DNA of 64,000 bases from positions 186,001 to 250,000 of the forward strand of contig CANQOO010000001.1 in assembly GCA_947625515.1 (NCBI GenBank). The letters are read 5' to 3'. The position numbers and the translations under genes were made by a program. Positions 3,944 to 10,869 of this stretch are shown piece after piece (the first letter of the stretch is position 1; each line of letters starts with the position of its first letter). Source of the stretch: an uncultured Clostridia bacterium (GTDB lineage: Bacteria; Bacillota; Clostridia; Christensenellales; UBA1242). The notes beneath the pieces were generated by a model. The model searched no databases. It was not told where the DNA came from and worked only from the letters and a program-made list of their open reading frames with translations.

Positions 3944-5098
3944 ATGCAAAAAGCACAAAACAACATAATCAAGTTTGAGAGCAAATATCAGCCTGCCGAG
4001 TTTGACGCGTCCGGCTCTGACCTGAAAGATGGCGAGGTTATTAGGCTTTCTCAGCAGAAACTTTTCAAGAACGCTTCTTTGGTGGACATCGGGGCGGGAG
4101 TATCTGCGGTCGTGGATATTTTGGTTCAGGGCGACAAAATTGTCAAGATTGCCAAGAAAATTGCCTCAACTGCGGAAATGGAAGTCCACAATTTGGATGG
4201 CGACTTTGTGCTGCCAGCGATGTGGAACTTCTATGCCCATTTTGACAGCCTTGTCGGGACAATTCAGCCTGCCGAAGACAATGCAAAATTTCGCAGAATG
4301 TTTGCCGAGGCGTGCAAGATGAAAAATCTTCTGTGCGGAAACGTCAACACCTTTCCGGTGCCTGGCAAAGAGGTTTGCTTGCTGGAAAACATCCAAGATT
4401 TGGACGAGAAGGATTTGGAACGGCTCAGCGACGACGCCGCGAAACACAGAAAACGCGTGGTGCTGCATGTTGGGCTGACGCTGGATGAACTTGGCAGCGT
4501 GGAGAAAAAATTTGGCAAGCCGCTTGTGTCTGTTTTGGAGGACTTTGGCTTTCTGGATAGGCCGTTTGCACTTGTGGGAGGGAATTGCCTTGAAAAAGAC
4601 GATTTTCAGACGCTTGCTCAGTATGACGGCAGAGTTGTGATTTGCCCCATGGAGGATGCCCAACTTGGGAGAAGAACGCTGAACATTCAAATGCTGAAAA
4701 ATTTGGGAATTGAGGTCGTGCTTGGCTCTGGCAGTGCGATTGATGCGGACTTGTTTGAGGCAATGCGTCAGCTTCTAAGCACCCAAAGAGCCCTTTTTGA
4801 GGACGCCGCAGCCCTTTCGGAGGCAGATGTGCTGAAAATGGGCACATTCGGATATGAAACCCTCAAAGAGGGCATGCCAGCCGACTTTATTGTGCTGCTC
4901 AACAAGCCCACAATTTTTGAAAATCTGCTTTCATATCTTGTTTGGGACGGCTCCAAAAGCGGCTGCCTGTTTACGGTTAAGGACGGCAGCATAGTGCAGG
5001 CGGGAGGATATATCAACAACTATCGCCTCAATCTGAATTATTATGATGTGCTTGGCATCTTGAATGCCATGAAAAAAGGAGAAAAAAATGACAATTGA
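3944..5098 (+). CDS. Amidohydrolase-fold protein, MtaD/SahH-deaminase-like, predicted inactive
   Basis: Collinear with MtaD-type amidohydrolases (FGKPLVSVLEDFGFL, LKNLGIEVVLGSGSAIDADLFEAMR, EGMPADFIVL) but metal ligands replaced; RBS gaaagggg before ATG 3944. Confidence 0.7.
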   Translation: MQKAQNNIIKFESKYQPAEFDASGSDLKDGEVIRLSQQKLFKNASLVDIGAGVSAVVDILVQGDKIVKIAKKIASTAEMEVHNLDGDFVLPAMWNFYAHFDSLVGTIQPAEDNAKFRRMFAEACKMKNLLCGNVNTFPVPGKEVCLLENIQDLDEKDLERLSDDAAKHRKRVVLHVGLTLDELGSVEKKFGKPLVSVLEDFGFLDRPFALVGGNCLEKDDFQTLAQYDGRVVICPMEDAQLGRRTLNIQMLKNLGIEVVLGSGSAIDADLFEAMRQLLSTQRALFEDAAALSEADVLKMGTFGYETLKEGMPADFIVLLNKPTIFENLLSYLVWDGSKSGCLFTVKDGSIVQAGGYINNYRLNLNYYDVLGILNAMKKGEKNDN

Positions 5099-7244
5099 AG
5101 AAAGACTTTCCAGCGAATTTGGACTTCGCACGGATTACACGCAAAACATTATCAACCTGATTGATGAAGGAAACACCATTCCGTTCATCGCACGCTATCG
5201 AAAGGAAATGCACGGCAGTTGTGACGACCAAGTGCTGAGAAACTTTGCCGACAGACTTAAATATCTTCGCAATTTGGATGACGAAAAGGCAAAAGTGCAA
5301 AAAGTCATTACCGAACAGGGAAAGTGGACGGACGAACTCGCCGCGGCTCTTGAAAAAGCCCTGACACTCACTGAGGTGGAGGATATCTATCGTCCATACA
5401 AGCCAAAGCGTAAAACGCGTGCTTCCGTTGCAATCGCAAAGGGACTGGAACCTCTTGCGGACATCTTGCAGGCACAACAAGCGGGCGTTGACATCAGAGC
5501 GAAGGCAGAAAAATTCATCACCGAAGAAGTTCCAACCGTCGAGGACGCCATTGCGGGGGCAAAAGATATCATTGCCGAGCGAATTTCAGACAGTGCCGAC
5601 CTTAGAAAAGAGTTGCGAGAAATTTTGGCGACAAAATCTTTCATTGTTTGCACGCTGCTTGAAAACGAAAACAGCCCGACATATGAAACCTACTCTGGCT
5701 TCAAGCAAGAGGTGAAAAATCTGCCAAGCCACCGAATTTTGGCAATCAACCGCGGGGAGAAGGAAAAATGTTTGAAGGTGGAAATTCAAATTGACGAAAA
5801 ACTGACCATTCCTGTCATTGAAAAAGAGTTCAAGAAAAACTGCGAGCAGACCAACGCCTTGATGGACGAGGTCATTGCGGACGCATATGAAAGACTTTTG
5901 TTCCCATCGCTTGAACGCGAATGCCGCAACAATTTGACGGATGCGGCAAACGAGCAGGCCATAAAGATGTTTGAGGTGAATTTGAGGCCACTGCTTTTGG
6001 AAGCACCGCTGAAAAACAATGTCATCATGGGCTTTGACCCTGGCTATCACAACGGCTGCAAAATTGCCGTCATTGACCGCAACGGAGCCGTTTTGGACAC
6101 AACGGTTGTGTATCCAACTCCGCCAAGAAGCAAAACGGAAGAGGCTCTTGAAAAACTTAAAAACATGATTGACAAAAACAAGGTGGACATCATCGCAATC
6201 GGCAACGGCACCGCAAGCAAAGAAAGCGAAATTTTTGTTGCGGAACTTATCAAGCATTGCAATCATCCTGTCAGCTATGCTGTCGTTTCGGAAGCGGGTG
6301 CGTCCGTTTATTCTGCAAGCAAACTGGCTGCGGAGGAATTTCCGGAATATGATGTCAATTTGCGAAGTGCCGTGTCAATCGCACGCCGCCTTCAAGACCC
6401 GCTTGCGGAACTTATTAAGATTGACGTAAAATCCATTGGCGTGGGGCAATATCAGCACGACATGCCGCAAAATCGACTGACCGAAGTGCTGGAAGGCGTG
6501 GTGGAGGACTGTGTAAACAGCGTTGGCGTGGACTTGAACACCGCCAGCCCGAGCCTGCTGTCTTATGTTTCTGGGCTTAACATGGGCATTGCAAAAAATA
6601 TTGTGGAATTTAGAAGCAAGGTGAAGGGCTTCAAGTCACGTGAGCAACTCTTGTCAGTGCCAAAACTTGGGCCGAAGGCATACGAGCAGTGTGCTGGCTT
6701 CTTGCGTGTAGTTGGCGGCGAAAATGTGCTTGACAACACCGCTGTGCATCCAGAAAGTTATGACGGGGCAAGAAAACTTTTGCATCTCTTCAACCTCAGC
6801 GAGGAGGATGTGAAAAATGGCAACCTCATTTTGTTGCCAAAATTGGTGGAGGACAAAGGGCAGGCGAAAGTCGCCGAGGAGTGCGGCATTGGCGTGCCGA
6901 CCCTTGTGGACATTGAAACCGAACTTCTTAAACCTGGCCGTGACATCCGCGAAAGCATGCCAAAACCTGTGCTTAGAAGCGACGTCATCCATATGGAGGA
7001 CCTTAAAGAAGGCATGGTGTTCTCGGGCGTTGTGCGAAATGTTGTCGATTTTGGAGCGTTTGTGGACATCGGTGTGCATCAAGACGGGTTGGTGCATATC
7101 TCTCAACTTTCGGACAGTTTTGTGAAGCATCCAAGCGATGTCGTGAAAGTGGGGGATGTTGTTGACGTCAAAGTGACGGCAGTTGACCTTGCAAAGAAAA
7201 GAATCTCTTTGACCATGAAAGGCATTGAAAAGGAAGAAAAATGA
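5088..7244 (+). CDS. tex: Tex family RNA-binding transcription accessory protein
   Basis: Tex_N, YqgF-like (IMGFDPGYHNGCKIAVID), HhH (LNTASPSLLSYVSGL) and C-terminal S1 domain (GMVFSGVVRNVVDFGAFVDIGVHQDGLVHISQLS). Confidence 0.95.
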   Translation: MTIEERLSSEFGLRTDYTQNIINLIDEGNTIPFIARYRKEMHGSCDDQVLRNFADRLKYLRNLDDEKAKVQKVITEQGKWTDELAAALEKALTLTEVEDIYRPYKPKRKTRASVAIAKGLEPLADILQAQQAGVDIRAKAEKFITEEVPTVEDAIAGAKDIIAERISDSADLRKELREILATKSFIVCTLLENENSPTYETYSGFKQEVKNLPSHRILAINRGEKEKCLKVEIQIDEKLTIPVIEKEFKKNCEQTNALMDEVIADAYERLLFPSLERECRNNLTDAANEQAIKMFEVNLRPLLLEAPLKNNVIMGFDPGYHNGCKIAVIDRNGAVLDTTVVYPTPPRSKTEEALEKLKNMIDKNKVDIIAIGNGTASKESEIFVAELIKHCNHPVSYAVVSEAGASVYSASKLAAEEFPEYDVNLRSAVSIARRLQDPLAELIKIDVKSIGVGQYQHDMPQNRLTEVLEGVVEDCVNSVGVDLNTASPSLLSYVSGLNMGIAKNIVEFRSKVKGFKSREQLLSVPKLGPKAYEQCAGFLRVVGGENVLDNTAVHPESYDGARKLLHLFNLSEEDVKNGNLILLPKLVEDKGQAKVAEECGIGVPTLVDIETELLKPGRDIRESMPKPVLRSDVIHMEDLKEGMVFSGVVRNVVDFGAFVDIGVHQDGLVHISQLSDSFVKHPSDVVKVGDVVDVKVTAVDLAKKRISLTMKGIEKEEK

Positions 7245-7387
7245 ACAAAATTTGCCCAAAATGTGGCACAAGTGTGACGGAAATTTTGGAAACGGGTTTT
7301 GTCGGGTGCGAAAAGTGCTATGACATGCCTGAAATTAAGTCTGCCGTGGACAAAATGTTTGGCGGCAAACGCCATCCAAAAACTTAA
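7241..7387 (+). CDS. Minimal McsA-like zinc-finger protein (48 aa), not in the ORF track
   Basis: ATGA overlap with tex; MNKICPKCGTSVTEILETGFVGCEKCYDMPEIKSAVDKMFGGKRHPKT*; CxxC...GxxGCxxCY...GG...H pattern of a McsA zinc finger; directly upstream of mcsB. Confidence 0.8.
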   Translation: MNKICPKCGTSVTEILETGFVGCEKCYDMPEIKSAVDKMFGGKRHPKT

Positions 7388-7399
7388 AAAGGAGCATTC

Positions 7400-8410
7400 T
7401 TGAACGAAGAGTTTGAAAACATTGCAATTTCATCTCGAATAAGGCTGGCACGAAATGTCTCCGGCTTCAATTTCTTCACGAAATTGGACAGCGTGGACGA
7501 CGCAAATTACATCGTGTCATCCGTCTCTTCCGCTCTTTCCAAATTTGGGGACTTTGACATTTTTTCGCTTAAAAATTTGTCCCTTAACGAATGCAACGCA
7601 CTTTTGGAACGACATATCATCAGCAAGGAGTTGATTGAAAACAAAGATATTGCTGCCGTCGCACTTTCGGGCGACGAGCATTTCATTGTCATGCTGAATG
7701 AAGAGGACCACATTAGGGAACAATGCATTGTGAGTGGCTTCAACCTGTTTCGGGCTTATCGGGAAATTAAAGAGTTGGACGATGCACTTCTTCGCGAGGT
7801 GGATGTGGCTTACTCTTCCGATTTCGGCTTTCTCACTTCCAGCCCGGCTAACCTTGGCACCGGCATGCGAGCCAGCGTGATGCTTTTCCTGCCAGCACTT
7901 GAACGCACGGCGGACATTGACCTTGTCTTGAAAGACGCTCGCACGGAGGGGATAACCGCTCGCGGGCTTTATGGCGAAGGCACGGAAAATTTTGGATTTT
8001 ATCAAATTTCCAATCAAAATTCGCTTGGGCTTTCCGAGCAGCAAATTTTGGACAAGGTGTCGGAGAATGTTTTTTCCATTTGCCAGATGGAACTTTCGGC
8101 ACGCGAGGACTTGCTTGCAAGAGAGCATGAACAGTTGCTTGACGAAATTTTCCGGGCATTTGGGGTGCTGGAAAACTGCCACCTGCTTTCCGAAAAAGAG
8201 ATGATTGAAAAACTTTCCCTTCTCCGCTTTGGTCAGGCGTTGGGCTTTTTGCAAATTGCCGACCAAAAGGCGTTTGAAAAACTTTTTGTGGATGGTTGCA
8301 GTGCCAATTTGAAAGAACTTGAAAATTTTTCGCTTGCTGACAAGGAAAATCGTGTCAGGAGTGAGTATATAAATAGGAAAGTGAAAGAACTTGTCAAAAA
8401 AATGGGATAA
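7400..8410 (+). CDS. mcsB: McsB-type protein-arginine kinase (phosphagen kinase fold), Cys-to-Ser at the active-site position
   Basis: SSRIRLARN, MLNEEDHIREQ, LGTGMRASVMLFLPAL, RGLYGEGTENFGFYQISNQ motifs; TTG start; followed by clpC. Confidence 0.93.
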   Translation: MNEEFENIAISSRIRLARNVSGFNFFTKLDSVDDANYIVSSVSSALSKFGDFDIFSLKNLSLNECNALLERHIISKELIENKDIAAVALSGDEHFIVMLNEEDHIREQCIVSGFNLFRAYREIKELDDALLREVDVAYSSDFGFLTSSPANLGTGMRASVMLFLPALERTADIDLVLKDARTEGITARGLYGEGTENFGFYQISNQNSLGLSEQQILDKVSENVFSICQMELSAREDLLAREHEQLLDEIFRAFGVLENCHLLSEKEMIEKLSLLRFGQALGFLQIADQKAFEKLFVDGCSANLKELENFSLADKENRVRSEYINRKVKELVKKMG

Positions 8411-8433: not shown

Positions 8434-10869
8434 ATGGCATTAAACAGCGGACTTTTTTCGGACAGCATTGAAAAAGTCATCAAAAACGCAAGCAAAATTG
8501 CACTTCGTTTCGGCAGCAACTTGGTTGGGACGGAGCATATCCTGTATGGGCTTGTCAGCGTGTCGGATTGCACAGCATCCAAGATTTTGGCGTCCTACGG
8601 CGTCACCGAAAATGCACTTTTCGAAATTTTTGAAGAAAGTGCCAGCGGAGTTTCGCTTTTTGGTAGCGTGGAACTCACGCCGCGGACAAAAGAACTGTTT
8701 CAAATTGCTCAAACCATCGCGATGGACCTTGGGCATTCTTTCATTGGCACAGAACATCTTTTGCTGGCAATTTTGTCAAACAGAAGTTGCTACGCCACAA
8801 GGATGCTGGAAAACTTTTTCAATCTGAATGTTGACGATGTGAAAAACAAGGTGCTTTCTTCCATGCAAATCTCTTCCGGCGAGCCAAAAAACAAAAAGGT
8901 GGACGAGGGCTCTTCAAGCGGCTCGCAAATGGCAAGTGCGTTGCCAGAAAAACTTTTGGAGATGGGCAGCGACATCACGCTCAAAGCCCGTCAGCACAAA
9001 CTTGACCCTGTGATTGGACGCGAAGAAGAAATTCAGCGTGTGATTGAAATTTTGTGCAGAAAGACCAAAAACAACCCTTGCCTTATCGGCGAGGCGGGCG
9101 TGGGCAAAACCGCTGTGGTGGAAGGCTTGGCTCAGGCGATTGCAAGCGGAGACGTGCCGGACGAAATTAAGGATAAAAGCATTTTTGCACTTGAAATTGG
9201 CGGGCTTATGGCAGGCACAAAATATCGCGGTCAGATGGAAGAAAAATTGAAAGACACCATCGAGACTATCATCCAGAACGGCAACATCATTGTGTTTATT
9301 GACGAAATTCACACGCTTGCACAGGCTGGGAGCGAAAAAGGCGAAACCAGCCCGGCAGATATGCTTAAACCATATCTTGCACGCGGCGAACTGCAAACAA
9401 TCGGTGCCACCACCACGGACGAATATCGCAAATTCATCGAAAAGGACAAGGCTTTGGAACGTCGTTTTCAGCCGGTGATGGTTAATCCGCCATCCGTTGA
9501 GCAGACCATAGAAATTTTGAAGGGCTTGAAGGACACATATGAGGCGTTCCACAAGATTAAAATCACCGACGAGGCCATATCTGCCGCGGCAAATCTTTCG
9601 GACAGATACATCACCGACCGCAGCCTGCCAGATAAGGCGATTGACCTTATTGACGAGGCGTGCAGCCGTGCCAAAGTGAACTTCACGCTCAAACCTCAAA
9701 AAGTGAGAGAACTGGAGGACAAAATCAAGTCCATCTCAGCAAGCCGCGACGAGGCAAGTTTGCAGCGAAATTACGAAAAAGCGGCGAAATTGCAGTCCGA
9801 AATCATCAATTTGGAAAACGAACTGAAAAGCCAAAACGACACCATTGTCAAGAAAAAGGGCAGCGGGCAGATTGGCGAGAATGAAATTGCGGAGGTTGTT
9901 TCCAAGTGGACAGGCATCCCTGTGACAAAACTCACGGAAGGCGAAAAGGAAAAACTTTTGCACTTGGAAGAGATTTTGCACAAGCGTGTTGTGGGGCAGG
10001 ACGAGGCAATCAACGCCATTTCCAAGGCCATTAGGCGGGCACGCGTGGGCTTGCAAGACAGCAAAAGGCCGATTGGCTCTTTCCTCTTTATGGGCCCGAC
10101 GGGCGTTGGCAAGACGGAACTTTCAAAGGCTATTGCCGAGGCACTTTTTGACAACGAAAACAACATCATTCGCATTGACATGAGCGAATATATGGAAAGT
10201 CACACTGTGTCTAAGCTTATCGGGGCACCCCCGGGATATGTGGGATTTGACGATGGCGGCCAGCTGACCGAACAGGTGCGTCGCAAGCCATACAGCGTTG
10301 TGCTTTTTGATGAGATTGAAAAGGCTCACCCAGAGGTGCTTAACAGTTTGCTTCAAATTCTGGATGACGGCCGCCTGACCGACAATCAGGGCAGAACGGT
10401 GTCTTTCAAAAACACCGTCATTATCATGACCAGCAACATTGGTGCCAGCGAAATTCGCTCACAAAAGCAGCTCGGCTTTGGCAGCGAAAGCGGCGAGAGG
10501 GCAAACGAGCGTGAGATTTACATGGACGCCCTTAAAAAGAAATTTAAGCCAGAGCTTATCAACCGCATTGACGTGATTTGCATTTTTGAGAGTTTGTCAA
10601 AACAAGACCTCCTCAAAATTGCCCACATTATGCTTGACGGCATGAACAAGCGTTTGAAGGGGCTGAGGGTGGAGGTGAAACCGGAAGCTCTTGAATTTAT
10701 TGTCGCCAAAGGCAGCAACCTCATTTATGGGGCAAGGCCGTTGAAGCGATTTATGGAACAAGAAATTGAGGACCGCATTGCAGAAAAAATTTTGCTTGGC
10801 GTCCTGCCTGAACATGGCACAATTGAAGTGGGCTTGGACGGCACACAACTCAGTTTCACCGCAAAGTGA
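8434..10869 (+). CDS. clpC: ATP-dependent Clp protease ATP-binding subunit ClpC
   Basis: Clp N domain, two AAA+ modules ([35 protein letters not shown]), UVR/M-domain between them. Confidence 0.96.

Follow-up and report, generated by a model that had tools for sequence, protein, structure and literature searches.

A serine-type McsB in a genus of small-genome Clostridia: a probable protein-arginine kinase that has Ser at the position of the active-site Cys

Introduction

A Cys-to-Ser form of McsB serves as a kinase-dead control in studies of protein-arginine phosphorylation. The window analysed here, a stretch of 64,000 nucleotides from an uncultured Clostridia bacterium, carries an mcsB gene in which this same replacement is the natural state. 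The original prediction for the locus left two options, a Ser-dependent McsB or a McsB that has become a non-catalytic adaptor for ClpC, and the question is which of them better fits the gene, its relatives and the content of their genomes. In the open-access papers that were searched, no previous description of a naturally occurring Ser-type McsB turned up.

Results

The gene stands in an operon of the order Tex, 48-aa mini-McsA, McsB, ClpC, with the following features.

5088..7244, + strand: tex, the upstream neighbour, overlapping mini-mcsA by 4 bases (open reading frame and domain match)
7241..7387, + strand: mini-mcsA, 48 aa, a single C4 zinc finger resembling the second finger of McsA (weak matches to McsA chains)
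7400..8410, + strand: mcsB, 336 aa, putative Ser-type protein-arginine kinase (PF00217; 6fh1 by sequence and fold)
8434..10869, + strand: clpC, 811 aa, with both GTEH motifs, the pArg-binding Glu positions, in the N-domain (profile matches)

The mcsB reading frame opens with a TTG start codon and has an AAGGAG site upstream. Domain, fold and gene order all identify its product as a homologue of McsB. The ATP:guanido phosphotransferase domain PF00217 is matched with E 1e-51 (175.3 bits, cut-off 22.4), and McsB crystal structures match by sequence, PDB 6fh1 being the best (E 1e-56). An AlphaFold2 model (mean pLDDT 91.9) has a TM of 0.92 to 6fh1_A over 337 columns, the predicted fold spanning the whole length including the dimerisation domain. 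The NCBIfam equivalog cut-offs for McsB are missed (314.5 of 385 and 266.9 of 500 bits), a failure that reflects divergence, since the Cys-bearing genus relative L035 also falls short with 329.6 of 385 bits. No second PF00217 gene was found in the 1.11-Mb assembly, a draft of 11 contigs that is 80.7% complete; in the control for this search a related Bacillus genome was matched and the B. subtilis genome went unmatched, the stretch there perhaps being masked.

The residues on which the argument turns are these.

7436..7453, + strand: Arg13, Arg15 and Arg18 (B. subtilis R29, R31, R34), invariant in the genus
7700..7717, + strand: Glu101, Glu102, His104 and Arg106 of NEEDHIR (B. subtilis E120, E121, H123, R125), invariant in the genus
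7841..7843, + strand: Ser148 (AGC), equivalent of B. subtilis Cys167 (alignment, free of gaps around the motif)
7847..7849, + strand: Ala150, two residues after Ser148; Thr or Ser in Cys-type McsB (B. subtilis T169; alignment)
7961..7978, + strand: Arg188 and Glu193 of RGLYGEG (B. subtilis R207, E212), invariant in the genus
8345..8359, + strand: Glu316, Asn317 and Arg320 at the former pArg-receptor site (B. subtilis R337, D338, R341; alignment)

The Ser148 motif reads GFLTSSPANLGTGMRASVML and aligns with C167 of B. spizizenii and B. subtilis, so the predicted Ser at the active-site Cys position is borne out, and the other kinase signatures (SSRIR, NEEDHIR and RGLYGEG) are all present, as had been said. 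The pArg-receptor motif RDxxRA is changed as well, with E316 and N317 in the window protein and R320 kept. Because both this motif and the hallmark Cys are replaced, we call the protein a Ser-type variant of McsB.

Homologues of McsB were aligned, 192 in all, and residue 167 (B. subtilis numbering) was compared. McsB was found in 98 of 101 sampled genomes of the window's genus, and on the question whether Ser is fixed in the clade, which the original prediction had proposed to settle in this way, the 91 aligned genus proteins have Ser in 85 cases, Cys in 5 and Asn in 1. All six Ser codons (AGT, AGC, TCG, TCT, TCA, TCC) occur at the site, which rules out the recoding of one codon; codon reassignment was rejected on these codons and on the relatives. 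A sequencing, assembly or annotation artefact might be suspected in a draft of 11 contigs and 80.7% completeness, but with Ser in 85 genus members from many assemblies, spelled by six codons, it is refuted by the relatives and we give it practically no credence. Two further observations concern individual members. In a near relative (91-93% identical) mcsB lies on two contigs with overlapping ends (L034 and L037), most probably because the assembly, not the gene, is broken there. The single Asn (AAT) belongs to L142 of genome G155, which keeps its other catalytic residues and has a 98.8% identical sister, L146, with Ser (AGT).

Beyond the genus, Ser also occurs in L004 and L015 from other genera of the family, both with their catalytic residues intact. 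Outside the family, Cys was found in 82 of 83 sampled class-level McsB; the lone Ser (L358, genome G374), from a different family of the class, has further catalytic residues damaged and is apparently an independently degraded type.

In a tree built with residue 167 excluded, the McsB of the genus group together in a single clade with strong support. The five Cys rows of the genus sit at three nested places (L035; L182 with L184; L179 with L186), and a tree forced to unite them is rejected (p-AU 1.9e-9). The history that needs the fewest changes turns Cys into Ser once, at the base of the genus, and back into Cys three times, parsimony leaving the direction uncertain. The AGY and TCN Ser codons interchange within the genus; such an exchange needs a double change or passage via Cys or Thr, and Thr was never seen at this site. 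The dN/dS of Ser-type McsB is 0.015-0.077, and purifying selection was rejected as a means of telling active from dead forms, degraded McsB being conserved too (0.03-0.25).

The remaining catalytic positions R29, R31, R34, R125, R176, R207, E120, E121, E212, H123 and N170 (B. subtilis numbering) are invariant in 91 of 91 genus McsB, in an alignment with 63 of 349 columns invariant overall. Lys mutants of R29, R31, R34, R125, R176 and R207 are inactive in B. subtilis McsB (PMC7235348). The C167S mutant of the same enzyme is also reported to be kinase-inactive, as is R337K, and C167S to keep its adaptor role (PMC7235348). These mutants speak for a McsB pseudokinase in the window that binds ATP and ClpC and acts as an adaptor only, as is thought for B. 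subtilis C167S, and so does the Glu found at the R337 position in 91 of 91 genus McsB. The Cys-bearing members of the genus have that Glu too, and about 33 of 54 Cys-type family members likewise have another residue in place of R337; nearly all of these possess the phosphatase described below. Three nested returns to Cys would be unexpected for a dead enzyme.

Two other positions were considered. At residue 169, almost every Ser type has Ala or Ser instead of Thr (Thr stands there in 27 of 34 Cys rows and 1 of 87 Ser rows). A coupling of 167 with 169 was rejected, the counts being suggestive and the independent changes too few (independent pairs, median p 0.5). Cys65 (7592-7594; B. subtilis position 85) is invariant in 91 of 91 genus McsB and rare elsewhere. 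It was rejected as a Ser-specific substitute for the catalytic Cys, because its equivalent is shared by Cys-bearing genus members, by Cys types of genus g21 and by degraded types of genus g12, and is absent from the Ser proteins L004 and L015.

Degraded McsB proteins (L020, L022, L028, L030, L031, L285, L286, L288, L289, L291, L296 and L298-L317) occur in sister genera. They have Asn, Asp or Ser at 167 together with further catalytic losses, at E121, R29, R176, R207 or E212, and nearly all adjoin ClpC in genomes that lack the LMW phosphatase. From the degraded residues and the missing phosphatase they are likely pseudokinases. L020, L022, L028, L030, L031 and L303-L317, for example, resemble the window McsB in belonging to the same family, adjoining ClpC and having lost Cys167, but they have also lost several more catalytic residues and lack the phosphatase, whereas the window McsB has none of its other catalytic residues missing and is accompanied by the phosphatase. 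The retention of damaged McsB beside ClpC in sister genera counts for the pseudokinase explanation; against it, the Ser type keeps all the catalytic residues that the damaged types lose.

YwlE reverses the action of McsB, and Thr in its CxGNTCRS loop marks it as an arginine phosphatase. The window's own genome encodes an LMW-phosphatase (PF01451, E 1.8e-17) with a CTGNTCRS loop, adjoining rpiB, which is YwlE-like by its domain and by the Thr in its loop. An LMW-phosphatase is present in 96 of 101 genus genomes, and the phosphatases of the family mostly have the CTGNTCRS loop. In 198 family genomes, McsB was sorted into classes on residue 167 together with seven catalytic positions, and each class was set against the presence of PF01451. 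The phosphatase accompanies intact Ser-McsB in 20 of 20 genomes, intact Cys-McsB in 52 of 54 (G019, with a McsB truncated where its contig ends, being counted as intact Cys), degraded McsB in 1 of 32 (G235, which is 7% contaminated) and absence of McsB in 8 of 91, with the weak-match genome G261 left out. By Fisher test Ser-intact differs from degraded (p = 1.7e-13) and not from Cys-intact (p = 1), with the qualification that 18 of the 20 Ser-intact genomes come from one genus. They are not independent cases, and the counts overstate how many separate events there were; three genera (g1, g30, g33) supply the support. Genus g21 has three members whose catalytic residues are damaged, one each with Ser, Cys and Asn at 167; the phosphatase is missing from all three and present in nearly all their relatives. 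Since one of these damaged members has Cys, the phosphatase tracks catalytic integrity and not Cys itself, and this genome-content test suggests that Ser-type McsB scores as active. Among draft assemblies of the genus, three genomes with no detected McsB still have the phosphatase and the Cys-bearing G068 is without it; the phosphatase could serve another substrate than the products of McsB. Taken with the intact residues and the returns to Cys, the contrast of 20 of 20 with 1 of 32 makes a pseudokinase in the window unlikely. The adaptor option of the original prediction is therefore not supported for this protein and better fits the degraded McsB of the sister genera, where kinase residues and phosphatase are missing together.

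The 48-aa mini-McsA has weak matches to the second finger in McsA chains of known structure (8wtb_B, E 0.0068; 8gqd_E, E 0.044), and the first zinc finger and the C-terminal region of McsA are missing. Its C5, C8, C23 and C26, spaced CxxC-14-CxxC, are invariant in nine aligned relatives, and throughout the genus McsA is 46-73 aa long with one C4 finger where the gene was recognised. In S. aureus the second finger of McsA contacts a loop of McsB and orients the catalytic Cys, touching the loop before Cys157 (PMC12467219). The retained finger corresponds to the part that makes this contact, and would thus position Ser148. The S. aureus McsA-McsB complex (8gqd) has the same kind of C4 finger, with 14 residues between the cysteine pairs; in the window, by contrast, the finger is the entire McsA and the residue to be positioned is Ser.

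ClpP is present. The Glu residues of the ClpC N-domain were rejected as a discriminator of active from dead systems, being kept in nearly all McsB classes. No ctsR was found at the window operon, and CtsR was detected in 0 of 61 genus genomes that keep McsB and ClpC (a related Bacillus genome served as positive control; the B. subtilis control was unmatched, perhaps masked). Loss of CtsR was rejected as an explanation of Ser, because the Cys-bearing G068 is also without CtsR and its absence therefore does not track Ser. A kinase that is active with shifted chemistry or substrate (very slow, acting on free guanidine, or with phospho-Ser148 replacing the charge of the thiolate) would accord with the changed pArg-receptor residues, the one-finger McsA, the absence of CtsR from 61 genomes and the Ala or Ser that almost all Ser types have two residues further on. 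Against such a shift, the ClpC and phosphatase partners are kept and the 167-169 coupling is not significant on independent pairs, and we regard it as quite improbable.

Discussion

Our results make it likely that the window McsB is a working protein-arginine kinase that uses a Ser hydroxyl in place of the Cys thiolate, with a one-finger McsA as activator; that the protein is catalytically active, that the hydroxyl takes this part and that mini-McsA activates it are what we infer from the comparisons above. The Ser-dependent option of the original prediction is thereby supported, with the other catalytic residues kept in 91 of 91 genus proteins, the phosphatase retained and several changes between Ser and Cys.

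In arginine kinase, the guanidinium is held in place through hydrogen bonds from Cys and two Glu (PMC11075012). By analogy, the Ser hydroxyl could still form the hydrogen bond, though it would lack the charge, and would assist the two catalytic Glu in binding the substrate guanidinium and positioning it to receive a phosphoryl group from ATP. The one-finger McsA of 48 aa would activate this Ser-type McsB and seat the Ser-bearing loop, phospho-arginine marks would direct proteins to ClpC-ClpP, and the YwlE-like phosphatase would take the marks off again. Such a kinase is possibly slower than the Cys type. Ser would be insensitive to thiol oxidation, and any relevance of this for these bacteria is speculation.

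With McsB of B. subtilis and Geobacillus stearothermophilus (6fh1, 6tv6) the window protein has in common the domain, the predicted whole-length fold (TM 0.92), the catalytic Arg and Glu residues and the placement between McsA and ClpC. It differs in having Ser for Cys167, Glu for Arg337 and Asn for Asp338, and its system differs in that no CtsR was found and the activator is one zinc finger. The eukaryotic arginine kinases share the catalytic domain, and their Cys271 mutants (1sd0 is C271A) are partially active, going by the title of Gattis 2004 as cited in PMC12467219 and PMC11075012. Calling the Cys essential thus goes too far where the superfamily is concerned; in B. subtilis, on the other hand, C167S is reported to lack kinase activity (PMC7235348). 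Those mutants were made in the laboratory in a kinase of free arginine, whereas the change seen here arose in nature and has become fixed across most of a genus.

Taken as a whole, the genus is probably a natural clade of thiolate-free protein-arginine kinases, with a Cys-to-Ser change at its base that removed the catalytic Cys of the phosphagen-kinase superfamily, at least three restorations of Cys, and a one-finger McsA. If the Ser type is active, the Cys may be replaceable in nature in a whole genus of small-genome gut bacteria. The genus, with three lineages back at Cys, would then offer a natural series for what Cys adds to arginine phosphorylation and for which residues permit Ser. Since the family also holds McsB that are likely pseudokinases and lack a companion arginine phosphatase, genome content would separate active from inactive forms.
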